From a virus: 42,301 nt of DNA. The notes beneath the pieces are model-generated. The model was given only the letters and a program-made list of their open reading frames with translations, did no database searches and was not told the DNA's origin. A program made the position numbers and the translations under genes. The stretch is taken from positions 1-42,301 of IMG/VR virus record IMGVR_UViG_3300024999_000196; one strand, given 5' to 3'. Positions 602 through 21,337 of this stretch are shown here, one piece after another (the stretch's first letter is position 1; each line of letters begins with the position of its first letter).

Positions 602-709
602 TTAATTACACATGATAGCCGCCTCTGCAATCATGTCGGCAATCATGTACCTCAATCCATCAATATCGCAATCGCAATCGTCAACCACTCTGCCACCCCT
701 CAATTGCAT
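602..709 (-). CDS. Small acidic protein, 35 aa, hypothetical
   Basis: This minus-strand frame starts at ATG 709, with a GGGGAG about 14 bases upstream, and encodes 35 residues. It is rich in Asp and Cys near the N-terminus (DDCDCDID) and then forms what looks like an amphipathic helix (RYMIADMIAEAA). The pattern weakly recalls the 31-residue frame at 2590-2685. It may be one of the tiny accessory genes that phages keep in a run before the packaging genes, or a chance frame. I do not recognise it. Confidence 0.28.
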   Translation of the reverse strand: MQLRGGRVVDDCDCDIDGLRYMIADMIAEAAIMCN

Positions 710-826
710 TCAATTCGCCACATCTCCCCATATTATCGCACTTTTAGCAATAAAATGCAATGGAATGGTGGAATATTGCGGAGATAAGAAAAAATGATTG
801 TGATGAAAAATAATTGCATTTTCCCC

Positions 827-855
827 TTGCATTTAGATTACAGAGGTAATACTAT
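827..855 (+). promoter_or_regulatory. sigma70 promoter for plus-strand cassette
   Basis: TTGCAT at 827-832 and TACTAT at 850-855 are separated by exactly 17 bases, a near-consensus sigma70 arrangement pointing at the gene starting at 934. Transcription would begin near 862, giving a leader of about 70 bases that contains the Shine-Dalgarno AAGGAGA. TTGCAT or its reverse complement recurs several times just upstream (for example 706-711 and 814-819), which could mark regulator sites. This promoter is the only obvious one for the three plus-strand genes up to 2556. Confidence 0.7.
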
Positions 856-933
856 AGTAATTAAGAGGAAGGGAAAAGCCCAAACCTCGCCACCTGAGAG
901 CGACACCGGAAGGGAGTCGCCAAGGAGAATCCC

Positions 934-1866
934 ATGAACGAGCAGAAGAACATCGTCGCAAGCCGCATCATCAACCACGCCCAAGCCCTCGGAAGCACCG
1001 CCGAAACACCTAAAGGTGCCCACAAGTACATCATGTCGCACCAACTCCGCATCAGCGACAAGCCTGTTGTGGCCGATTCCTATTCTAACTGGATTGAGGC
1101 CAAAAGAGAATATCTTGAGAACGAATCAAGGCGGCGGCTCGATCGCCGGATGTCAACAATTCCCTTGGGTGGCGTCAGCAGGGATGAAATCGCAAGGGCC
1201 GAACGGATAAAAAACCGTTCTAGGAAAAATTGGAGAGATCCGGCACCGAGCCTTCGTGTCCTCGGAGAAAGTTGGACGAATTTAATCAACTGCGGACAAT
1301 ACTCAAGCCGATGCACTTACACCAAATGGGAGTATCTCCCTATAGTTACGTGTTTCGCAATAGAACGCGGCAACCTCGGACTAGAATTCCATTGGCTCGA
1401 CACCGTTACATTCCTCGCCCCCCCAGCTGGATACAGGTGGCAGAAGGATCGCAACGGCATCGCGCTGATCTCCACCGACGGCAAAAAGGATTACCACCCA
1501 GACAGCGATGATCTGCGCCATTACACCAAGTCGGCAATCAGGACCAAGGCCGTCGAAAACTACCGCCGCCGGCAGGCCGTCATGGTCGAGCAGAAGCGGC
1601 AACTTTCCGAAATCAAAAAGGCCGAGAGAGAGGGCGCCGTCATCTGTGTCGCCGACTCCAAGCGGGCCGGAAACTGTGTCGCCGGAACGCTGCGCTTTGC
1701 CGAGCGGCACGGACTCGACCCACGGAAGCACTACAGCCCGTCACAACTACTCAAAATCGCCAACGGGGATGCCCACAGGGTAGCCCTGGCCGTAGCCGTT
1801 GGGTTGCGGCGACATAGGCAGGAAATGAAACTCGGATACTGCGATATCTCTGCACATCGCGCATAA
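934..1866 (+). CDS. Conserved-looking phage protein of unknown function
   Basis: This is a 310-residue protein with a good Shine-Dalgarno (AAGGAG, 9 bases before ATG 934). I do not recognise a named family. The visible features are a basic, helix-rich N-terminal half, a central segment rich in Trp and Tyr (residues about 125-180), and a charged helical stretch (about 195-235) with many Lys, Arg and Glu. It ends in a domain carrying ADSKRAGNCVAGTLRF and an HGLDP motif, with histidine and arginine clusters. It is the first gene of a plus-strand cassette opposed to the early operon and is followed by an RHH-like and an HTH gene, so a role in regulation or in the lysogenic state is possible. That is inference only. 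Confidence 0.75.
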   Translation: MNEQKNIVASRIINHAQALGSTAETPKGAHKYIMSHQLRISDKPVVADSYSNWIEAKREYLENESRRRLDRRMSTIPLGGVSRDEIARAERIKNRSRKNWRDPAPSLRVLGESWTNLINCGQYSSRCTYTKWEYLPIVTCFAIERGNLGLEFHWLDTVTFLAPPAGYRWQKDRNGIALISTDGKKDYHPDSDDLRHYTKSAIRTKAVENYRRRQAVMVEQKRQLSEIKKAEREGAVICVADSKRAGNCVAGTLRFAERHGLDPRKHYSPSQLLKIANGDAHRVALAVAVGLRRHRQEMKLGYCDISAHRA

Positions 1867-1914
1867 TCCCACCCAACCGCCCCCGGCAGCGGGGGCAAAA
1901 CTCAAGGAGAAATC

Positions 1915-2352
1915 ATGTCAAAAAAAACTACCATCTACATTCCAGACGGGATGCAGGAAATCGTTGAGGCCTTCGGATCCGACTCGCTGTCCGGGACACT
2001 GGCGACACTGGTCGAGCGGTATGACCGGATAACCCGCGATGCTGTCCCGGAGTTATCCGAGCCGGAATGGTCGGCAATCGCCGACATCCTCAACGGCTGC
2101 GGGGTACTCATGGCGTCAGGCGGGCACGACCAGGCGCAATCGGTATGGGCAGAGGTTGCCGACTCCGAACCGGACGGGATTGATGGAAAATGGGGGATCT
2201 CGTGCCGGGGTCTCGCGGAAAAACTCCGAGCGTTGCCGCTGATAGGAAGAATTGCGACATGGGACGTAGCCGCGCGGTTCTGGGCATCTCCGAGGTTAAA
2301 CGAGGCGTCAACGCACGTTCTCTTGATCGAGGCCGGGGCAAAGATTAAATAA
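1915..2352 (+). CDS. Ribbon-helix-helix-like protein, 145 aa
   Basis: This 145-residue protein starts at ATG 1915 behind AAGGAGAAATC. The N-terminus (KKTTIYIPDGMQEIVEAF, then SLSGTLATLVERY) has the form of a short beta strand followed by two helices, as in ribbon-helix-helix DNA-binding proteins. The remaining 95 residues are an alpha-rich domain I cannot name, with an LSEPEWSAIADILNG segment. It is the second of three plus-strand genes and probably co-transcribed with 934-1866 and 2377-2556. DNA-binding regulation is a reasonable inference from the N-terminus. The target is unknown, but the TTGCAT copies near the cassette promoter are a candidate. Confidence 0.7.
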   Translation: MSKKTTIYIPDGMQEIVEAFGSDSLSGTLATLVERYDRITRDAVPELSEPEWSAIADILNGCGVLMASGGHDQAQSVWAEVADSEPDGIDGKWGISCRGLAEKLRALPLIGRIATWDVAARFWASPRLNEASTHVLLIEAGAKIK

Positions 2353-2376
2353 TAACACCTGGCGAGGAGAATTAAA

Positions 2377-2556
2377 TTGACCCCAGCCGAAATCCGCCAC
2401 CTCCGCCGGAACCTCGGACTCAACACAGCTGAGTTCGGCGCACTGGTCGGGGTAAGCGGGCGAACATGCGAAGATTGGGAGCAGGGCAGGCGTAGACCGT
2501 CTATCCCTGCCCAGAAAATCATGGCGCAGTTGGCAAAGACCGTGCCGACCAAATAA
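2377..2556 (+). CDS. XRE-type HTH protein, 59 aa (TTG start)
   Basis: This short gene is missed when only ATG or GTG starts of longer frames are considered. TTG at 2377 follows GAGGAGA by 6 bases and opens a 59-codon frame. The product is essentially one helix-turn-helix: AEIRHLRRNLGLNTAEFGAL, then VGVSGRTCEDWEQGRRRPS, with the recognition-helix pattern and the WEQGRRRPS ending typical of XRE/Cro-family and HigA-like proteins. It follows the RHH-like gene by 24 bases in the same cassette and is followed at once by a terminator-like hairpin. It is a probable autoregulator of the plus-strand cassette. Confidence 0.75.
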   Translation: MTPAEIRHLRRNLGLNTAEFGALVGVSGRTCEDWEQGRRRPSIPAQKIMAQLAKTVPTK

Positions 2557-2708: not shown

Positions 2709-2722
2709 AATTTGCCACCGCC
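2709..2722. repeat. 14-bp direct repeat, left copy
   Basis: AATTTGCCACCGCC occurs here and again at 3608-3621. The two copies bracket about 900 bases holding the 42-codon gene and the Tgt/DpdA-like gene. The left copy touches the stop codon of the latter. Short identical sequences flanking a gene block are what is left by insertion or deletion through recombination between small repeats. Confidence 0.6.
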
Positions 2723-3447
2723 TAAAACAACTCGTTCTGTGTATACCTCTTCATCCATGTAGCCGCAGAATTGTGCGCCTCTATCCGCTCGGCCAATACT
2801 ATCCCTCGCGTTTCATTGTTTGGCGGATTGTAGGTTGTCCACCGCGAAGAATCTTTGCAGTTTTGGGCTACGTTTGTGCTGTCACAACTCGAAAACGGAA
2901 GCCTTGTAAACACTGCCGGATCAAGCATCCTGAGACCGTGTAGTTTGCTTATCGGTCTGCCGTCCCCATCGATAATCTTATTCATCGCCTCGGCCATTCT
3001 ATTCCACCATTTCTGTGTCCCTATTTTCGCATATTCTCCTGAGCTGCCGATTGCCACTCTGGGGTATCCTTCGCACAGGAAAACCAACCAGTGCAGCGGT
3101 TCATGAAGATGCCAAACAGGAACTCCAATATTGCGAGAGAATGGCCATCTTCCCATTAGTTCTTGATTTTGTTTTACGTCTCCAGCGATCACATCTGGAA
3201 TGAGCGCCCAATCAAAACCAGGATGCCTGCTCCACTTCTCAACGAACCCATAGTATCCATTCCAGTCCGTTTCTTTGCCAGATCTCCACAAAGAGAACGC
3301 TCCATTGTCAAGCGCGAATGTACTTGCAACCTCAGCGGCTACGCCTATTTGTTCTGGCCTGGCAAAACTCACAAAAGCGTGCCTGTTCTTCCACACCTTC
3401 GCCGCCGCCTGTTCTGGCCATATGGGGCCGCCGTGATAATGGATCAT
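2722..3447 (-). CDS. Tgt/DpdA-like protein (putative base exchange)
   Basis: This 241-residue protein belongs to a family I have seen only as hypothetical in phages. Its motifs fit a TIM barrel of the tRNA-guanine transglycosylase/DpdA group. FALDNGAFSLW (near residue 46) parallels the DSGGF active-site loop of Tgt. IPDVIAGD follows (near 82), then a VPVWHLHEP strand. SSCDSTNVAQN (near 192) could carry the second catalytic aspartate. DpdA enzymes put 7-deazaguanine bases into phage DNA to evade restriction. The four-cysteine zinc site of tRNA enzymes is absent, which suits a DNA-type member. No queuosine-precursor genes are in the window, so a host precursor would be needed. The start overlaps the preceding stop (ATGA). 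The gene is certain; the function is inferred. Confidence 0.5.
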   Translation of the reverse strand: MIHYHGGPIWPEQAAAKVWKNRHAFVSFARPEQIGVAAEVASTFALDNGAFSLWRSGKETDWNGYYGFVEKWSRHPGFDWALIPDVIAGDVKQNQELMGRWPFSRNIGVPVWHLHEPLHWLVFLCEGYPRVAIGSSGEYAKIGTQKWWNRMAEAMNKIIDGDGRPISKLHGLRMLDPAVFTRLPFSSCDSTNVAQNCKDSSRWTTYNPPNNETRGIVLAERIEAHNSAATWMKRYTQNELF

Positions 3448-3572
3448 CGTTTTTTCTCAATCCAGAAATCGAAAGATAGAATATCCCTGATCCTCTGTGC
3501 CGGGCTTGCCAGCAATCGGCGCATTAGGTCTTCAAGATCGATGCACATCGATATGCCAATAATTATTTTCAT
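3444..3572 (-). CDS. Small protein, 42 aa, coupled to DpdA-like gene
   Basis: This minus-strand gene starts at ATG 3572 with AAAGGCTGAG just upstream. Its TGA overlaps the ATG of the next gene (ATGA), so translation is probably coupled. The 42 residues begin with a hydrophobic strand (MKIIIGISM) and continue as a helical, basic segment (LEDLMRRLLASPAQRIRD). I do not recognise it. Upstream, 3574-3636 could encode a further 20-residue peptide whose start codon sits in a hairpin (3617-3625 with 3633-3641). That one is too weak to list separately. Confidence 0.5.
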   Translation of the reverse strand: MKIIIGISMCIDLEDLMRRLLASPAQRIRDILSFDFWIEKKR

Positions 3573-3654: not shown

Positions 3655-4014
3655 TCATTTGCCTCTGTAAATCGAACCTGTGCCACCCTCGCACTTTTTC
3701 CACTCAAACGTCATCGGCTCGGCAACCGGCGTCTCGTTGCTCTGCATATCGGCGTAAATCCCCAGATAACCGGCTGCGTCACGGATGTTATCCCGCTTGT
3801 GCTGGTGCGATTCGCGGGCGATCTTAAAGAGGACCATCATCATCGCAACATCCCGGCGATCAAGATCAATATCTTCATATCTCTCACTCAAGTACACGCT
3901 CCAGTAATCAGCGATAAGCCCAAAACTATCTTCTGGCGCACCGTACACGTCCTGCCTCTCACCGTTGATTACGTCCACTGCCTCTGCCAGAACTGATCCT
4001 CTTCTATCGCCCAT
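3655..4014 (-). CDS. DUF6378 family phage protein
   Basis: The 119-residue product matches the pattern I know for DUF6378: an early AEAVDVINGERQDVYG, then DSFGLIADYWSVYL, then DRRDVAMMMVLFKIAR, ending in a DNIRDAAGYLGIY helix. Proteins of this family are all-alpha, common in phage early regions and of unknown biochemical role. The gene sits between the primase-helicase gene and the Tgt/DpdA-like block, in a nucleotide and replication neighbourhood. The length is ordinary for the family. The family call is confident. I give no function. Confidence 0.8.
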   Translation of the reverse strand: MGDRRGSVLAEAVDVINGERQDVYGAPEDSFGLIADYWSVYLSERYEDIDLDRRDVAMMMVLFKIARESHQHKRDNIRDAAGYLGIYADMQSNETPVAEPMTFEWKKCEGGTGSIYRGK

Positions 4015-4029
4015 GATTTCCCCTTAAAA

Positions 4030-5796
4030 TTAAAATAAATATTGCTTAGGCGGCGAGTCTTCAAAGTCGATGAACTGGCATGAAGGCTTATGGAAGTACA
4101 GTCCGATAACCGGCTCTTCACCTGTCTCCCGTTGCTTCACCACACTCAAGACCATATCCGTCTCGGTGTTCATCAGTCCTGATTCAATAGCCTTCTCCCG
4201 CGCCTTGTTTCTCCAGACGATCATCGAATTGTCCACCATGTCGGTAATCGCCCCGGTTCCCTTGATATCGAATTTGCCCGGAACCGTGCCTTCTCCCGGC
4301 CCCTTGCGAACATGGACAACGAGATGCACATGGACGTTATGTTTACCGGCAAACTCCATCAACGTGTCAACAAAACCTTTCTGCCCGTTGTAATCGTCCT
4401 CTGAAAATCCGCACTTTGCCAGCGAATCAACGATGAACTGAGTCACCCCGTACCGTCTCCGCGCATAATCGAATATCTCAAGGATCCGCGTTGCCTTGGT
4501 CGTGCCGTATGCCTCGAACATCCACACATGATCCCCCAAGAAACGCAGTATCTGCTGTGCCTCTGCATCGTTCGGATTGTCATGCCCGCATACCTGCTGA
4601 TACATCTTTCTGCCCAGTTTGCGCGGCTTCATCTCCATGCTGGCAATACAGAACCGTTCACCCTGAGATACCCCGTCCACCGCAACATGGCTGAGTGCTA
4701 TTGATTTTCCATGGCTGTTTATCCCGGCCCATACGGATATCTCTGCTGGCCTCAACCTGATTTTCGCGTACGTCTTCGGCCACGGGAGCTTCATTCCGAT
4801 CAGCCCTGTATCACGGAACTCTTCCATGATCTCGCTATGGTACGCAGTCAGCAACTTCAGTTCTTCCGGGTCTCTCGTCTTTGCCGCAGCGATGAACTGC
4901 GTTAAAACCTCACCGTTCAGGTGGGCCTCATTCGCGTCCTTGTGCTCGCCCAGGTCAACCACATGGCACCGCTCGACCCCAAGAGCATCGATTATCGGCT
5001 TGATTGCCGACTGTCCCGGCGCGTCCATGTCCATCGAGATGTAAATCCGCTTGAACCGTTCCAACCGTTCAAAGTCGTGCTGAATCCATGCTTTCTGTTT
5101 CTCTCCATCGCCACCGCCTTGAGGGATTGATAGCGCGGGAAATCCCTGCTGATAGTAGGTCATGCAGTCAATCTCACCTTCTGTCACCACAACCTCTGTA
5201 TCGTTGTCGCCGATGGACTGCCAGCCGAACAGGTGATACTCAGGATCAGGATTTGACCAGATTTTTTTCTTGCCGGATTTCTCTTCGGCGTCGAGGTCAC
5301 GGTATTTTACCAGTTCGATTTCGCCAACTGGTGAGATAAACGGGAAGACGATGGTGTTTCCCTGCTGTCCGATCCGATATGCGTCCAGCGTACTCTGCGT
5401 GATCCCCCGACCCTCAAACCATGACTTGACAGTATCCGCAGGTTTCTTGCACTTCGGCTTCTCGACCGGCCTTTTCTTGGGTTTCGGCGAGTAGAAGACA
5501 GGTGGGGTATCGTCTATCCCGGCAAACGCCTTTGCTTCCTTGATTGCCTCAACAAACGTGATGCCCTTGGATTTCTGCCACAGGTCGAGCAGGTCGCCGC
5601 CCTTTTCGTTGCTGGAAAAATCAGTCCATACTCCGGCCTTCGCCCCCTTGAGGCATACCCGGAGACTTTGCCCTGGTTCGCCTCCTACCGATCCGGCGCA
5701 CCAATTTCCACCCTCACGCTTGCCATTCGGGAGTAGGTGCTCCACTACGGAATCGACCATGTCGGCAAGGCGCCTACTCAGTTCTCCAGGTGTCAC
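4030..5796 (-). CDS. Bifunctional primase-helicase (Toprim + DnaB-like)
   Basis: This 588-residue replication enzyme joins a primase and a hexameric helicase, like T7 gp4. Residues about 1-90 are a primase-type N-terminal region lacking a clear four-cysteine zinc finger (only Cys33 and Cys48). The Toprim domain follows, with VVVTEGEID (Glu206) and ISMDMDAPG (Asp256, Asp258). The RecA-like helicase has a Walker A GINSHGKS (358-365), a Walker B-like QFIVDSL near 450, and an HLVVHVRKG strand near 485. It primes and unwinds at the phage fork. The start overlaps the stop of the upstream loader-like gene, so the two are coupled. The domains are clear. The absence of a recognisable zinc finger suggests altered template recognition. 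Confidence 0.9.
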   Translation of the reverse strand: MTPGELSRRLADMVDSVVEHLLPNGKREGGNWCAGSVGGEPGQSLRVCLKGAKAGVWTDFSSNEKGGDLLDLWQKSKGITFVEAIKEAKAFAGIDDTPPVFYSPKPKKRPVEKPKCKKPADTVKSWFEGRGITQSTLDAYRIGQQGNTIVFPFISPVGEIELVKYRDLDAEEKSGKKKIWSNPDPEYHLFGWQSIGDNDTEVVVTEGEIDCMTYYQQGFPALSIPQGGGDGEKQKAWIQHDFERLERFKRIYISMDMDAPGQSAIKPIIDALGVERCHVVDLGEHKDANEAHLNGEVLTQFIAAAKTRDPEELKLLTAYHSEIMEEFRDTGLIGMKLPWPKTYAKIRLRPAEISVWAGINSHGKSIALSHVAVDGVSQGERFCIASMEMKPRKLGRKMYQQVCGHDNPNDAEAQQILRFLGDHVWMFEAYGTTKATRILEIFDYARRRYGVTQFIVDSLAKCGFSEDDYNGQKGFVDTLMEFAGKHNVHVHLVVHVRKGPGEGTVPGKFDIKGTGAITDMVDNSMIVWRNKAREKAIESGLMNTETDMVLSVVKQRETGEEPVIGLYFHKPSCQFIDFEDSPPKQYLF

Positions 5797-6077
5797 TGTA
5801 TTTTCCTCTGGATTCCGTCAGCGAAGACAGGCCCGGATACTGCGGTCTTTGCTTCCCAGAATGCAGCCAGCGATGGAAATCGATGGCATTTCTTGAGGAT
5901 TTCAGAGATTGCCTTTGACAAGGTCTCGTCAGTGAACCCCCACTCGGTCAACACCTTGTGATACTCCAGCGTCCGCGTGTCTGGGATTTTGTAATCGAAT
6001 GCAGTCTCAAGATTCGATATTGCTTTCAAGAAGTTTGGAAAGTCGAGCGAGTTTTTCTTCAAATTCTCTTTCTGCAT
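5793..6077 (-). CDS. Helicase-loader-like replication protein
   Basis: This is a 94-residue protein if started at ATG 6077, which has AAGGA 9 bases upstream. An ATG at 6086 would be too close to that site. It is mostly helical, with DFPNFLKAISNLETAF, then TLEYHKVLTEWG and LSKAISEILKKCHRFPSL, in the style of small phage replication proteins that recruit the helicase. It overlaps the end of the initiator gene by about 70 bases and the start of the primase-helicase gene by 4. This initiator - small protein - helicase order resembles lambda O-P style modules and supports a loader role by context only. Confidence 0.6.
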   Translation of the reverse strand: MQKENLKKNSLDFPNFLKAISNLETAFDYKIPDTRTLEYHKVLTEWGFTDETLSKAISEILKKCHRFPSLAAFWEAKTAVSGPVFADGIQRKIQ

Positions 6078-6834
6078 TTTCGTCATTCCTTTTTGCTTTT
6101 TGCTCTGTGAAGTTGCCTTCAAGAATCTTTGTCATGTTGGCCGGATTCAATATCCATCCAAGATCAGCCCTCCACCCTTTCGGGCCTTTACCCAGGAGGA
6201 ATGGGCTTTTCCCTATGCTGTCGAAGAGGTTTTCCCACCACGTTAATGTCTGCCTGTCCTTGTCCTCCACCCATCGGGCCTGAAGGTGCTTTTTCCTTGT
6301 TCCGTTCCACATGTTCGGGATTACGGCTGGAAGTTGAGGAAGTTTTTCGTTGTACAGTTTGACAATTTCCAAATGCGGGCACGGCGCGCTCGAAACACGA
6401 GAGTGTTTTACTTCTTCTTCATTCTCTTCATTCTTACATTCTTTACATTCTTGTTTGTTGTCGTTTGTTTGTCGTTTGTTTGTCGTTTGTTTGTCGTTTG
6501 TTTGTCGGTCTTCAACTTCTTCGCTCTGATATTCTTCGTATTTACAGATAGTTATTATAGTAAATTTGTTTGTCGTTTTTCGCGTTATTTCGTTTCCCTG
6601 TTCGAGTCTACTCAGACATGTCCTAAGCGTCCTTGTTGTGATTCCGGTAGCCTCGCTCAGTGAATGGAGGCCACATATAAACTGGCCCTTTTTTACCTCT
6701 GCTCCTCTCCATTCTCCGTCCTTGTGATTTGCCGATGCAATGAGATGGATAAACAGATGCACCATGTGGGAGTCCTGATACCATCCCCATTCAGTTATTT
6801 TGCGATGAAGCTTAACCCATCCACAGGCTTTCAT
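6007..6834 (-). CDS. Replication initiator, lambda O-like organisation
   Basis: This 275-residue protein has an N-terminal winged-helix region (MKACGWVKLHRKITEWGWYQ to about residue 95, including LSEATGITTRTLRTCLSRLE as the HTH). A low-complexity linker rich in Thr, Asn, Gln and Lys follows (about 108-135), then a C-terminal domain containing TRKKHLQARW and WRADLGWILNP. The last segment is typical of phage DnaD/O-like replication proteins. The linker is encoded by four 11-bp tandem repeats (6461-6504). Because 11 is not a multiple of three, the encoded repeat is 11 residues over three units. Iterons inside the initiator gene are the lambda O arrangement, so the origin is probably here. Confidence 0.75.
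   Translation of the reverse strand: MKACGWVKLHRKITEWGWYQDSHMVHLFIHLIASANHKDGEWRGAEVKKGQFICGLHSLSEATGITTRTLRTCLSRLEQGNEITRKTTNKFTIITICKYEEYQSEEVEDRQTNDKQTTNKRQTNDNKQECKECKNEENEEEVKHSRVSSAPCPHLEIVKLYNEKLPQLPAVIPNMWNGTRKKHLQARWVEDKDRQTLTWWENLFDSIGKSPFLLGKGPKGWRADLGWILNPANMTKILEGNFTEQKAKRNDENAEREFEEKLARLSKLLESNIES
6461..6507. repeat. Iteron-like 11-bp tandem repeats, candidate origin
   Basis: Four exact copies of TCGTTTGTTTG occupy 6461-6504, followed by a partial unit. A degenerate copy lies just to the left (6449-6460), and a related TTTGTTTGTCGTTT lies at 6565-6578. Between them is an AT-rich stretch (about 6536-6565). Tandem iterons beside an AT-rich segment, inside the initiator's own gene, are what lambdoid origins look like. 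Confidence 0.6.
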
Positions 6835-15114: not shown

Positions 15115-15306
15115 ATGTTCGGATTCGATGCTCCATTAGTGCTCGCAGTGCTGGCCTTCATTGTTGCGCCATTCGTAATTAACGGCACCATGGCCCGGAG
15201 CCGTGGCAAAAGCGTTGCGCTCATGCTCTTCCTGACCTGCATCTTTTCGTGGATTGTGACGCTCGTTCTGGCCTGTCTGCCGAAGGTGCCTAAACCGCAG
15301 CCGTGA
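15115..15306 (+). CDS. Small two-helix membrane protein
   Basis: The 63-residue product starts at ATG 15115 with GAGAGGTGATAA upstream. Two membrane segments are plain (LVLAVLAFIVAPFVING, then ALMLFLTCIFSWIVTLVLAC) separated by a basic turn (ARSRGKS). It ends in a Pro-rich KVPKPQP tail, and its stop overlaps the integrase start. Small membrane proteins next to integrase or repressor genes are often expressed from the prophage and can block superinfection. That role is an inference here. Confidence 0.75.
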   Translation: MFGFDAPLVLAVLAFIVAPFVINGTMARSRGKSVALMLFLTCIFSWIVTLVLACLPKVPKPQP

Positions 15307-16412
15307 GCGTCCACCAGACCCCAGACGGGAGATGGTTCGTCCGCTTCCAGCGCGGGAAAATCCCCGAACGTCCGAACGCGACGCGGGAATACTTCGGACG
15401 CGGGCCGAACGCAGAGAATCGCGCCCGCGCCAGGAATCAGGAACTTGGTCTCGGTCGTGTCGCCGCCGTATCCGGCAAAGTGTTCCGTGATTTGGCCCTG
15501 TACTATCTGGAGAGCCGTTTGGACAAGATGGAAGAAAGGTCAGTATCAACAGCCCATTCCCACGCCACAGTCCACCTGATACCCTATTTTGCCGATACCG
15601 ATGTGTTGTCGATTGCCGAGGACATGCTAGACGGGTACGTGTCCAGGCGCAGAAAGGCGGAATGGAGAGACGGCGCCGGACAAGGCAAGGTGCATGTCGG
15701 GGTATCGAGATCGACAATCAAACGGGAATTGACCACGTTTCAGGCCATCATGAATTTCGCGGTCAAGCGCAAGGTGATTTTGTACAATCCCGCCGCGCAC
15801 TACGACATGCCGAAAGGCGACGATGCTGTCATAGCCCCGGCCACACAGGAAGAGGTCATGGCAATCTTGCGGGTCTCGCCGCCGCATCTCCAGAGGTTCA
15901 TCCTGCTGGCATGGTACACCGCCGTCCGGCCTGGTTACACTGAGTTACTGACGTTGCGATGGGATCAGGTTGATTTCGCCGGCAAGACGGTATTCATTCG
16001 GAGCGCGAAGAAAGGCGGGCTGGTGTCGAGGAAGATACCGATGCACCAGGAACTGGAGGCATCTTTGCTGGATTGGTACGAGCATGACCGGCACATGACG
16101 CCGATGCCCACCCATATCATCCATTACCATGGAGAGCCGGTCAAGAAGGTCGGCAAGGCATGGTCAGCGGCGAAGAAGAGGGCAAAGGTTTTGCGGAGGC
16201 TTCCGGCCTACTCGATCCGACATTCAGCGATTACTCAGATGTTGGAATCGGGCGCGGATTTGAAATCTGTCTCGATCCTGGCCGGTCATGCCAGCCCCGC
16301 AATGACCATGCGCCGGTATCAGCACTCATCGACTCGGCTTCAGGCATTGGCGATATCAGGGCTGGTAACAGTCGGTCACAGTTCAGGAGTTACCGATAAG
16401 CCGCAAACGTAG
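15303..16412 (+). CDS. int: Tyrosine-type site-specific integrase
   Basis: This 369-residue tyrosine recombinase inserts the phage into the host chromosome. The start GTG 15303 overlaps the preceding stop. An N-terminal arm-binding region (VHQTPDGRWFVRF) is followed by a core-binding SAM-like domain and the catalytic domain. The latter has the first Arg in YTAVRPGYTELLTLRW, box II in LPAYSIRHSAITQML (R-H present, the usual first His replaced by Tyr, as in other YSLRH-type integrases), LAGHASP and the nucleophile Tyr in RRYQHSS. It is the last gene of the plus-strand lysogeny operon. attP is expected within the following 120 bases. Confidence 0.93.
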   Translation: MSVHQTPDGRWFVRFQRGKIPERPNATREYFGRGPNAENRARARNQELGLGRVAAVSGKVFRDLALYYLESRLDKMEERSVSTAHSHATVHLIPYFADTDVLSIAEDMLDGYVSRRRKAEWRDGAGQGKVHVGVSRSTIKRELTTFQAIMNFAVKRKVILYNPAAHYDMPKGDDAVIAPATQEEVMAILRVSPPHLQRFILLAWYTAVRPGYTELLTLRWDQVDFAGKTVFIRSAKKGGLVSRKIPMHQELEASLLDWYEHDRHMTPMPTHIIHYHGEPVKKVGKAWSAAKKRAKVLRRLPAYSIRHSAITQMLESGADLKSVSILAGHASPAMTMRRYQHSSTRLQALAISGLVTVGHSSGVTDKPQT

Positions 16413-17732: not shown

Positions 17733-17856
17733 CGGGGGCTGATCACCGGAACGCCCGGAGATCGGAGCAAGAGATTACATTATATCACTGCATTACCACG
17801 ATTGCAAGAAGTGGCCCTCCTGGGTGCGCTTCGTTGAGAGGCGTGGCGGGCATCTC

Positions 17857-18195: not shown

Positions 18196-18302
18196 ATGTC
18201 TCTCCAATATGCCAAAGGTTGCAGCAATCCATAGTTCAGGGCGTAGTAGATCAGCGCCCACATTGCCAGGGTTGTCAGAATTGAAATGACTGCCGCTCTC
18301 AT
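18192..18302 (-). CDS. Small membrane protein, 36 aa
   Basis: This frame begins at ATG 18302, overlapping the tail fibre stop, and ends with a TGA overlapping the next start. The 36 residues are one hydrophobic helix (AAVISILTTLAMWALIYYAL) and a short tail. Overlaps on both sides make it a convincing gene despite its size. A holin-like or signal-arrest role is possible, but the main lysis genes lie elsewhere. Confidence 0.6.
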   Translation of the reverse strand: MRAAVISILTTLAMWALIYYALNYGLLQPLAYWRDI

Positions 18303-21300
18303 GCGTATCTCAACAGGTCGAGAATTTCCGCATCAGTTCCAACGCTCTTATTCCACAGTTGAGACTGGATTATCCCGATAGGCTTGTCTATCGTGTACCC
18401 ATAGCGCAGATGCGTTCCAGGGTTGACGCTACCATCGTAAGCCGCAGCCGTACCCCATGTTATCGCTGTCTCAGAAGATTTTTTATATCCGATCTGCTGA
18501 TTTGTCCCAGCCCCATTGATCCACCACGGAATGAATATTTGCTCCCCATTTGCCCATCCTCCTGCCACCGTCACCGTGCATGTATTGACCCCGTCTGATG
18601 CCTTCAGCACACCCCCAGCGGCCATATAAATACCGCCTGTGATGTTGTTATTCACCGCAAGGAGGTTGGAGTCGGCTGTCACTTCGGCGGATGATTCCAG
18701 CATTTTTACGAGAACAACGGCGGTAAATACCCCCCCGAGCGCAGCAGTTATTTCCGCATTGTCGGCCACAGACAGCCCAGCCCCGGCAGATGTGGCGGCT
18801 GTTGATGCAATCGCAGCAGTTTCCCCGACTCCGGTAGCGGCATACGGCATCACATACGAACTAATGGTAAGTTGCGGCTCGTAAACCGTCACGATCCCGG
18901 TTGCTACGGCACTCGCCCCGAGTCCGAAACGGAATGTAGCGGTATCGCCAGCTGCCCCGGCTGTGATCTTGATTGAAAACGTATGAATCCCAGCAGCAGG
19001 GACAGCGTTTTCATCCGCAACGACAACCCCGTCCATCGATACAACAATCGTCCCGCCAGTGAGCGAACAATACTGAATCTCATCAATCTGCAACACTCCG
19101 TCACAGACCGCCTTGAACGAGAATGTATAGACCGACAGCGCGGTCATTGCCTGATTAATGGCGAGATATCCCCTTGATGCCGTGCCGCTGAACCTCAGAG
19201 AATTGCCAACCGTCCGCGCCGTAACCGCCATCGTCGGAGAATCAACAACGGAATATGTCCAGTTATCCGGGCCGGTGCCGGGCGAACCTGCTACGGCGTT
19301 CAGGAGTTTACTGTTCTGCGCCAGTTGGGTATATGCTGGCGAAACTCTTACGCCCTCGCCAGATACATAATTCGGCCAATTGACGAGAGTTCCGTTAATG
19401 TCTGGTTGCTGAGATGCAGCACTATATGTCGATTGTGGTCCGTATGGTGCAGCAGTAGGCTCCCTTGCGCTCCACAAATGCACCAACCCAGAAGGAGAAG
19501 TATATCCGAGATACCTGTCAGCCCTTGCCGCCTCATCGTAGGATAAAGGCTGGTTGTAAATAAACATCCCTCTTGATCCTACCCTGGTATGCCTTGAGGC
19601 TATAGGATCAGAGAGATCTACCGCCGCGCCTCCGGTCCACTCTGCAATCTCCTGAAACTCCGGGCCGAGTGGGGCTGTGACGGTGATTGCTGGGTAGGTG
19701 GTGCCTGCTGTGATGGTGGCTGAGACGTTGAGGGGGCCTGGACTTGCTATCGCATATTGACTAATATCGCTGGCGCTATCAGGAGAGAAGGGAATCACTG
19801 AGTTAAACAGAAACGATTCATTTTCCGACCCCAATGCGTTAAAATGCAGACCGTCTCCGTTGTCGTATGCAGTTAGGAGATTATCTGTACCTGGGGATAG
19901 CATCCCATTGTACATTGGGGCTACGCGTATCCCATTAGCCGATCCATATGCGTTTATCAAGGCATTTAGTTCTTCTATTTTTGTCTGTATGCCTTCGGTC
20001 CATGAAGTATGTGTTCCGCACGGTGAAACTTCAGACAGGGTAACTCCTATTCCATTTGCATCTGCGATATCAACACACGCTGAAATATTCGCCATGATTC
20101 CTGCTGCGGATACCACCCCCCCTAGTATATCGTTGATTCCCACAAAAATAATGCAATGCGTCCCGCCAGTTGTGACAACATCTGCCGAGAATCTCGCTAA
20201 AACTTGGGCCGATGTGTTCCCCCCAACCCCTTTATCTAAAAAAGTCGTACGCTTATTTGTCAGTCTGATGTACTGGATATACCCAGTTGTCAAACTATCT
20301 CCAATGCATACTACGGCTCCTAAACTATTCGGATAACCTCCACGAGTTGATATAGTATAGCGGCTTCTGGCTCTTGGTGGGATCTCGTACAAACTACTCG
20401 GAGTTAATCCCTCGCACAGTTGCATTTCTTTTACAATAAACCCATCACCGACAGTTGTGGATGTGTTAAGACCTGGATACATATAGAACCTGACATCATC
20501 AGTTCCTATATCGAAAGTGGCTTTACTTATTTCTATAACCGTATCGACTGTTTCAGACAACCCAGCCACTTGCACCATTGACGGAACAGAAACAGTTCCA
20601 GGACCAGATATAACGCGGGCTGTACAACCAGTCAGTGCCCCATCGTGCAAGGAAAATTCATTATAGGCGTTTGTGCTGCCAGGTATTTTTCTGAGAGTTA
20701 AAGTAACGCTATATGTAGTGACTGCTGCTTTTATGCCCCCCCCCTTGAGCATCTGAGTGGCCATATATGGCGCGGTTGTGATCTTACTGAATGAATAATA
20801 TCCGCTGCCGAGGTCCACAAGTGCAATCCCTATTAAATTGGTGTTGATAATAGTTGCGCTGAATAAGTTTTCTCGATATGAATATCCTTTCTCGTTTACG
20901 TAATTCGTCCCAGTGCCATCCACCACCTCAGCAATCGTCGTAGTCGTCAGGTACAGGTGATGGCCATTCCCGCTCGCATCCAACTCAAATGAGCCTGCCA
21001 CATTAATTCCTGGCCAGTACGCCCACAGCACTCCTGCCCGATGAACGTAGACATCCCAACAATCCGCAGAGATGGTCAGTGTACCATTAACCGTGCAGGT
21101 AGGAACCGTGCCTTGACTCGTGATAGTGTCTGTGGTGAGCAGCCCCGTACATGCGCCTGTTCCCGCGCCGGAGAATACAGAACCTTTGACTTGTGGGGTG
21201 GTCGATCCAGTACGCGGGAGATATGCCTGAAGTTTGCCGTCTGCGATATCGCCACGATACCATGCCAGCATTTCGCCGCTGGCTATGTCGCGGAGCCACC

Positions 21301-21337
21301 TCGACCGATTGAGCAATAGCAGTTTACGTGCGCTCAT
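18299..21337 (-). CDS. Tail fibre/tailspike with SGNH (GDSL) hydrolase domain
   Basis: This 1012-residue protein is the likely receptor-binding fibre. Residues about 1-160 are an N-terminal attachment and beta-sandwich part, and 160-325 another beta-sandwich. Residues about 340-515 form an SGNH hydrolase: block I CIGDSLTTG (Ser348), block II GVGGNTS, block III VGINDI (Asn402) and block V DGLHFNALG (Asp495, His498). The rest (520-1012) is beta-rich with concanavalin-like repeats. The hydrolase would remove acetyl or other esters from the host surface polysaccharide. A G9 tract on the coding strand (20736-20744) lies at codons near 199-201. It is coupled to the membrane protein downstream. Confidence 0.85.
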   Translation of the reverse strand: MSARKLLLLNRSRWLRDIASGEMLAWYRGDIADGKLQAYLPRTGSTTPQVKGSVFSGAGTGACTGLLTTDTITSQGTVPTCTVNGTLTISADCWDVYVHRAGVLWAYWPGINVAGSFELDASGNGHHLYLTTTTIAEVVDGTGTNYVNEKGYSYRENLFSATIINTNLIGIALVDLGSGYYSFSKITTAPYMATQMLKGGGIKAAVTTYSVTLTLRKIPGSTNAYNEFSLHDGALTGCTARVISGPGTVSVPSMVQVAGLSETVDTVIEISKATFDIGTDDVRFYMYPGLNTSTTVGDGFIVKEMQLCEGLTPSSLYEIPPRARSRYTISTRGGYPNSLGAVVCIGDSLTTGYIQYIRLTNKRTTFLDKGVGGNTSAQVLARFSADVVTTGGTHCIIFVGINDILGGVVSAAGIMANISACVDIADANGIGVTLSEVSPCGTHTSWTEGIQTKIEELNALINAYGSANGIRVAPMYNGMLSPGTDNLLTAYDNGDGLHFNALGSENESFLFNSVIPFSPDSASDISQYAIASPGPLNVSATITAGTTYPAITVTAPLGPEFQEIAEWTGGAAVDLSDPIASRHTRVGSRGMFIYNQPLSYDEAARADRYLGYTSPSGLVHLWSAREPTAAPYGPQSTYSAASQQPDINGTLVNWPNYVSGEGVRVSPAYTQLAQNSKLLNAVAGSPGTGPDNWTYSVVDSPTMAVTARTVGNSLRFSGTASRGYLAINQAMTALSVYTFSFKAVCDGVLQIDEIQYCSLTGGTIVVSMDGVVVADENAVPAAGIHTFSIKITAGAAGDTATFRFGLGASAVATGIVTVYEPQLTISSYVMPYAATGVGETAAIASTAATSAGAGLSVADNAEITAALGGVFTAVVLVKMLESSAEVTADSNLLAVNNNITGGIYMAAGGVLKASDGVNTCTVTVAGGWANGEQIFIPWWINGAGTNQQIGYKKSSETAITWGTAAAYDGSVNPGTHLRYGYTIDKPIGIIQSQLWNKSVGTDAEILDLLRYA
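20736..20744. repeat. C9 (coding G9) tract in the tail fibre gene
   Basis: Nine C in a row on the plus strand encode consecutive Gly codons (KGGGIK) of the fibre. A change by one base would truncate the fibre before its hydrolase domain. Confidence 0.8.

Follow-up and report, generated by a model that had tools for sequence, protein, structure and literature searches.

The stretch of DNA analysed here, referred to as the window, is a 42,301-base virus record of IMG/VR and belongs to a temperate tailed phage, in which an integrase gene is accompanied by genes for a Rha protein, an HK97-type capsid, a portal, a terminase and a tape measure protein. The dpdA-like gene was found exactly as given in the preliminary description, and it closes a replication block that runs in the order helicase loader, primase-helicase, DUF6378 protein, 42-aa ORF and dpdA (Table 1). 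The 42-aa ORF is unrelated to the QueD, QueF-L or YhhQ partners of other loci.

The preliminary description had also stated that no preQ0 synthesis gene lies in the window, and this holds, as HMMs of PTPS/QueD, QueC, QueF, Vut_1/YhhQ and GTP cyclohydrolase I gave 0 matches there while the positive controls worked. The small QueF-L-like protein discussed below is absent from the window phage, the operon of the window itself carries no 7-deazaguanine partner, and no tRNA gene is present in the window. As the window lacks FolE, QueD, QueC, QueF and YhhQ, any precursor must be derived from the host; all 15 sequenced genomes with related prophages encode QueF.

Other features of the window are recorded in passing. 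The abiF RNA (Rfam RF03085, 43.1 bits) is usually found with an abortive-infection gene, whereas the window record has no Abi_2 protein gene, leaving this copy an orphan. A GDSL lipase/acylhydrolase domain is present in the 1012-aa protein of the tail region, and this protein may be a tail-borne esterase for surface polysaccharides. In contig L002, whose DNA around dpdA is 97.7% identical to the window and which was compared with window 692-2470, window position ~2470 is joined directly to ~783, so that the plus-strand genes at 934-2352 resemble a block of inserted cargo; the DUF6378 protein of L002 is only 74% identical to that of the window, a sign of recombination.

Table 1. Positions of the genes, motifs and other features in the window and, where a contig is named, in related loci
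Feature	Position	Strand	Remarks
dpdA-like gene, short singleton DpdA (phrog_887)	2722..3447	-	241 aa, ATG start
SCDSTN, residues 187-192	2872..2889	-	D189 pairs with SCDSS of CAjan and 9g
KLHGLRML, residues 168-175	2923..2946	-	H170 corresponds to His196 of 9g DpdA
VAIGSSGE, residues 131-138	3034..3057	-	G134 and S135 in 53/53 relatives; pairs with ITIGG/ITLGG of DpdA
PVWHLHE, residues 110-116	3100..3120	-	H113 and E116 in 53/53 relatives; pairs with PCFHFGE (CAjan) and PCFHAGE (9g)
IPDVIAGD, residues 83-90	3178..3201	-	D85 in 53/53 relatives
LDNGAFS, residues 46-52	3292..3312	-	aligned to LDSGAFS in the DpdA proteins of CAjan and 9g
42-aa ORF	3444..3572	-	ATGA overlap with the dpdA start; no family match
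DUF6378 protein	3655..4014	-	next gene upstream, replication operon
Toprim/AAA primase-helicase	4030..5796	-	upstream of dpdA, same strand
Helicase loader	6007-6834		replication block
Integrase	15303-16412		
abiF RNA	17814-17850	-	Rfam RF03085
GDSL-domain protein	18299-21337	-	1012 aa, tail region
~81-aa partner (PHROG 37496)	L127:5759-6001, L086:5756-5998		also in 68 other contigs (L245-L311, L091, L092, L105)
216-aa protein	L307:2743 and L311:2743		AFDNGAW and APDIV motifs

The motifs LDNGAFS, IPDVIAGD and SCDSTN, from which a Tgt/DpdA-like protein had first been suggested, were all located in the translation. Conservation was judged on 53 relatives that are pairwise <80% identical, and D47, N48, G49, P84, D85, H113, G134, S135, H170, D189 and S190 are kept in every one of them, so that all presumed active-site residues are invariant. 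D47 of LDNGAFS lies at the C-terminal end of a barrel strand in the predicted model, at the position of the general acid/base Asp of TGT (DSGGFQ). By inference IPDVIAGD is the counterpart of the DECT loop of TGT, VAIGSSGE resembles its IxIGG loop, and D189 is the presumed nucleophile, the likely counterpart of Asp280. In BLASTP alignments KLHG pairs with the KLHA/KVHG of the CAjan and 9g DpdA proteins, and the His of KVHG is His196 of 9g; this hallmark His of DpdA is hence present in the window protein and in 53/53 of the family. DpdA2 of Vibrio phage nt-1 is also a phage protein of the TGT superfamily linked to preQ0 genes, but it lacks the hallmark His (PMC6884629), a lack that the window protein does not share.

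The zinc site of the tRNA enzyme is missing, as had been claimed: the motif CxCxxC occurs in 0/53 family members as against 25/25 of the bacterial TGTs compared, and the only cysteines of the window protein are C125, C188 and C197. Between the window gene and that of contig L003 dN is 0.22 with synonymous sites saturated, so that dN/dS is not computable; a dN of this size at saturated synonymous sites points to purifying selection.

The family is large, and its motifs are not a product of chance. The PHROG family phrog_887 ('queuine tRNA-ribosyltransferase') matches residues 1-228 (E 9.8e-75), tblastn with the window protein matched 127 phage records, including the temperate phages SfI, BTP1, SPN3UB and SEN1 as well as Vibrio, Pseudomonas and Acinetobacter phages, and a first scan of IMG/VR gave 302 confirmed matching stretches, with hundreds of viral contigs overall. 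A single family allele occurs in 100 complete E. coli genomes out of 5,426. The nearest distinct relative is 75% identical and most others fetched are about 50-59% identical; megablast of the left 25 kb of the window found no related phage record. One 1,719-base record, OR850331.1, is named Staphylococcus phage and holds an enteric-type dpdA whose range and identity are those of the Salmonella phages listed beside it, and it is probably mislabelled or contaminated.

By BLASTP the window protein is 38% identical to the singleton DpdA of Salmonella phage 7-11 (E 2e-35), 27% to the DpdA of phage CAjan (E 7e-12) and 27% to that of Enterobacteria phage 9g (E 2e-11), the E-values being those of single comparisons. 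The SEN1 homologue, which belongs to the branch of the phage MED16 DpdA, shows 37.6% identity over 97%. In a maximum-likelihood tree 7-11 and SEN1 are nested within the family and CAjan/9g form a distant pair, although the long 7-11 branch makes its exact placement unsure. The window protein thus shares a family with the singleton DpdA proteins (7-11 and the MED16/SEN1 branch; group 3 of Hutinet et al. 2019; PMC6884629, PMC8306585), a kind of phage DpdA already described in 2019 and 2021. The 7-11 protein is likewise short (234 aa) and, like the window gene, is encoded without a preQ0 pathway; the described group comes from gamma-proteobacterial phages. The DpdA of 9g and of Escherichia phage CAjan (DpdA1) aligns through its LDxGAFS, HxxE, xxIG, KxH and SCDS motifs, yet the window protein lacks about 65 C-terminal residues of these proteins and, unlike theirs, its gene has no adjacent folE-queD-queE-queC cluster.

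Kinship with TGT is less easily seen in the sequence. Scans of the window protein against Pfam, NCBIfam and PADLOC gave no match, and PDB sequences queried with the protein or its profile gave spurious matches only. CAjan DpdA likewise had no match in the PDB, so that no DpdA structure was found by sequence. The best E-value of a TGT HMM against the family was 0.21, and hhalign gave no significant link to bacterial TGT, for which the shallowness of the alignments (Neff about 3) is the probable reason. With TGT (PF01702) the window protein shares the TIM barrel predicted for it, the presumed Asp residues where strands end, and LDNGAFS as against DSGGFQ; it differs by having no zinc motif, no Pfam match and no significant profile match.

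The preliminary description would have been contradicted by a predicted fold other than a TIM barrel. The AlphaFold2 model, built from a 21-row alignment (pLDDT 84.3, pTM 0.84), shows the alternating strand-helix order of such a barrel, with D47, H113, G134, H170 and D189 at or near strand ends. In a VIA-align run on the top 1000 structures, Cap10 of type IV CBASS (9ntn_A) ranked first with a Z of 16.0 over 228 aligned residues, followed by archaeal TGT (1j2b, Z 15.0) and, in many entries, Zymomonas mobilis TGT (3bl3 and others, Z 14.4), as against 13.8 for FBP aldolase. The first PDB matches of Foldseek were other, generic TIM barrels, so that the fold by itself is no proof of TGT kinship; in a viral structure library phage models labelled 'queuine tRNA-ribosyltransferase' matched with E about 1e-8, and the fold comparison also brought up R9TGF0 (Vibrio phage nt-1, annotated as uncharacterized), with E 4.9e-3. 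We consider the TGT superfamily to be the best fit for the modelled barrel, though only narrowly. As TGT profiles were not reached and the lead over other barrels is small, the DpdA assignment rests on similarity to DpdA sequences.

Cap10 is a remodelled TGT-family protein (PMC11996544), and its place at the head of the structural matches raises the thought that the window protein binds a 7-deazaguanine, or attaches one to protein, for attack or counter-defence and not for genome modification. QueC, moreover, adjoins dpdA in two relatives, and the CBASS partner Cap9 is QueC-like (PMC11996544). The Z of Cap10 is nevertheless only 1 above that of archaeal TGT, the likeness in sequence is to DpdA, no PADLOC model matches, and the partners in relatives are mostly QueD, YhhQ or QueF-L-like; neither a CBASS nucleotidyltransferase nor any other CBASS context was noticed in the window. 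A role of the Cap10 kind is accordingly very improbable in our view.

Of 176 loci examined in the relatives, 147 have an ORF directly upstream that abuts the start of dpdA or overlaps it. Clustering revealed among these neighbours QueD-like proteins, QueC and transporters of the YhhQ type, as well as a small protein whose motifs are CP, HE and HHHG; Pfam confirms the first three (PTPS 3.1e-23, QueC 4.8e-41, Vut_1 1.3e-11), and YhhQ is a preQ0 transporter (PMC6884629). When the full records of 48 non-redundant relatives were searched with HMMs, 13 of them gave matches above cut-off, 8 to PTPS, 4 to Vut_1 and 2 to QueC. Counting the small protein, 26 of the 53 non-redundant relatives have a QueD, QueC, YhhQ or ~81-aa QueF-L-like gene at most 323 bp from dpdA, always on the same strand, and two kinds of partner occur together in only 1 locus of the 53. 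The labels are scattered over the tree, with 13 changes when counted with the labels then known, the tree having been labelled before the wider partner search and so lacking some QueF-L-like and YhhQ labels. This scatter suggests repeated recruitment and not one inherited block, and the repeated recruitment of different single pathway steps beside the same exchanger points to a deazaguanine as its substrate.

Other DNA modifiers are also found at these loci. In eight of them (L022, L029, L031, L032, L034, L040, L124 and L167) the start of dpdA is overlapped by a gene for an MT-A70 adenine methyltransferase, and in Pseudomonas phage Epa33 (L086) a C5-cytosine methylase lies downstream of dpdA; DpdA seems to gather with such enzymes.

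The reading of the window gene as Tgt/DpdA-like is therefore backed by its similarity to two DpdA proteins of known DNA function (CAjan and 9g), by the hallmark His, by a TIM-barrel model whose best matches belong to the TGT superfamily and by the 7-deazaguanine genes that adjoin it in relatives. Its identity as a short zinc-free DpdA-type protein is supported.

The small partner of ~81 residues is PHROG 37496, annotated as 'unknown function'. When it was searched for alone, with a pattern from its HHHG region, 70 contigs with 54 distinct sequences were recovered, and in 68 of them a dpdA of the family lies 0-515 bp downstream. The remaining two (L307 and L311) have a divergent DpdA relative in that place, detected by the family HMM at E 4e-5 and 5e-5, so that a DpdA-type gene follows within about 0.5 kb in 70/70 contigs. 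The 216-aa protein of these two contigs, which adjoins the QueF-L-like gene, is a very divergent DpdA relative and possibly represents a further DpdA subfamily. A second small group (L095, L008, L102 and L106) looks like a remote relative of the ~81-aa protein.

The model of the ~81-aa protein is a T-fold (pLDDT 97.1) whose best PDB match is the archaeosine synthase QueF-L (5jyx; Z 12.9, rmsd 1.5 over 81/81 residues), ahead of GTP cyclohydrolase I (Z 10.9) and bacterial QueF (Z 9.8); Foldseek agrees on QueF-L (E 6.7e-4). Cys12 and Glu49 never vary, and at least 90% of the sequences keep His48. The protein has no Pfam match, none to PF14489 (QueF) above cut-off, and hhalign to QueF gave a probability of 2.9; as the QueF model of Pfam is blind to it, the assignment rests on structure and motifs, from which we read it as a putative minimal QueF-L-like enzyme. 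Since the QueF-L homologue of phage Dp-1 made preQ1 rather than archaeosine (PMC6884629), the product of the ~81-aa protein may likewise differ from archaeosine.

A partner that occurs only beside the DpdA family is difficult to reconcile with the thought that the window protein is a relic or regulator, which binds deazaguanine or DNA and lost base exchange together with the pathway. Such a protein would explain why the modification measured in relatives, described below, is a trace, and the window does lack a precursor gene. We nonetheless hold a relic to be highly unlikely, because all 53 relatives keep every presumed active-site residue unchanged and the dN to L003 at saturated synonymous sites indicates purifying selection.

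Based on these data we propose that the gene encodes a short, zinc-free DpdA of the TGT superfamily, which in our judgement probably replaces guanine in phage DNA by a host-derived 7-deazaguanine, with preQ0 the probable base; modification of DNA by the window phage is likely. In steps modelled on established TGT chemistry, the short DpdA would be made from the phage replication operon, and D189, as presumed nucleophile, would attack C1' of a deoxyguanosine to form a covalent aspartate intermediate. Guanine would leave with help from D47, the presumed acid/base, and its place would be taken by a 7-deazaguanine. This base is most likely preQ0 supplied by the queuosine pathway of the host, and hydrolysis may afterwards convert it to the amide ADG. 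For the window protein we infer the DNA substrate, the inserted base and the residue roles, as well as host supply and any protection from restriction.

Deleting dpdA of CAjan abolished dPreQ0 and made the DNA restrictable (PMC6884629). Very little modification was measured in two relatives of the window protein: the DNA of phage 7-11 holds 50 dADG per 1e6 nt, ~0.02% of G (PMC6884629), and in MED16 dADG amounts to ~0.13% of G, with the DNA still cut by enzymes that have G in their sites (PMC8306585). Such a trace is too little for broad DNA protection and, as MED16 DNA is still cut, bulk protection is unproven. The modification may be confined to certain sites or conditions, or else DNA is no more than a minor substrate, and it is here that the model is weakest.

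The trace base could indeed be a side reaction, and it is conceivable that the phage enzyme acts on RNA, altering queuosine in host or phage tRNA. To the low DNA modification of the measured relatives (PMC6884629, PMC8306585) may be added the TGT-like fold, the database label 'queuine tRNA-ribosyltransferase', and neighbouring QueD, QueC, YhhQ and QueF-L-like genes that fit RNA modification equally well. An RNA substrate is all the same unlikely, since the zinc motif of the tRNA enzyme is missing in 53/53, the likeness in sequence is to the DNA enzymes of CAjan and 9g with TGT undetected, the window has no tRNA gene, and dpdA stands at the end of a replication operon.

Keeping DNA as the preferred substrate, we further suggest, with moderate confidence, that a split system of DNA modification in phages is built around the short DpdA, in which the exchanger would be joined as a rule by at most one host-complementing step (QueD, QueC, the preQ0 importer YhhQ or the ~81-aa QueF-L-like protein). 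Phages without a partner, the window phage among them, would borrow everything from the host, and PHROG 37496 would be a dedicated DNA-archaeosine or preQ1 synthase. In the literature covered, which includes few subscription papers, neither the repeated pairing of the family with individual steps of the 7-deazaguanine pathway nor the QueF-L-like identity of PHROG 37496 was found reported.

A survey in 2019 asked whether singleton DpdA proteins had functionally diverged (PMC6884629), and the linkage to partners bears on whether they still handle 7-deazaguanines. In addition, a testable function is now proposed for the uncharacterised PHROG 37496. If modification proves heavy under the right host conditions, temperate phages would evade restriction for the price of one 240-aa gene.
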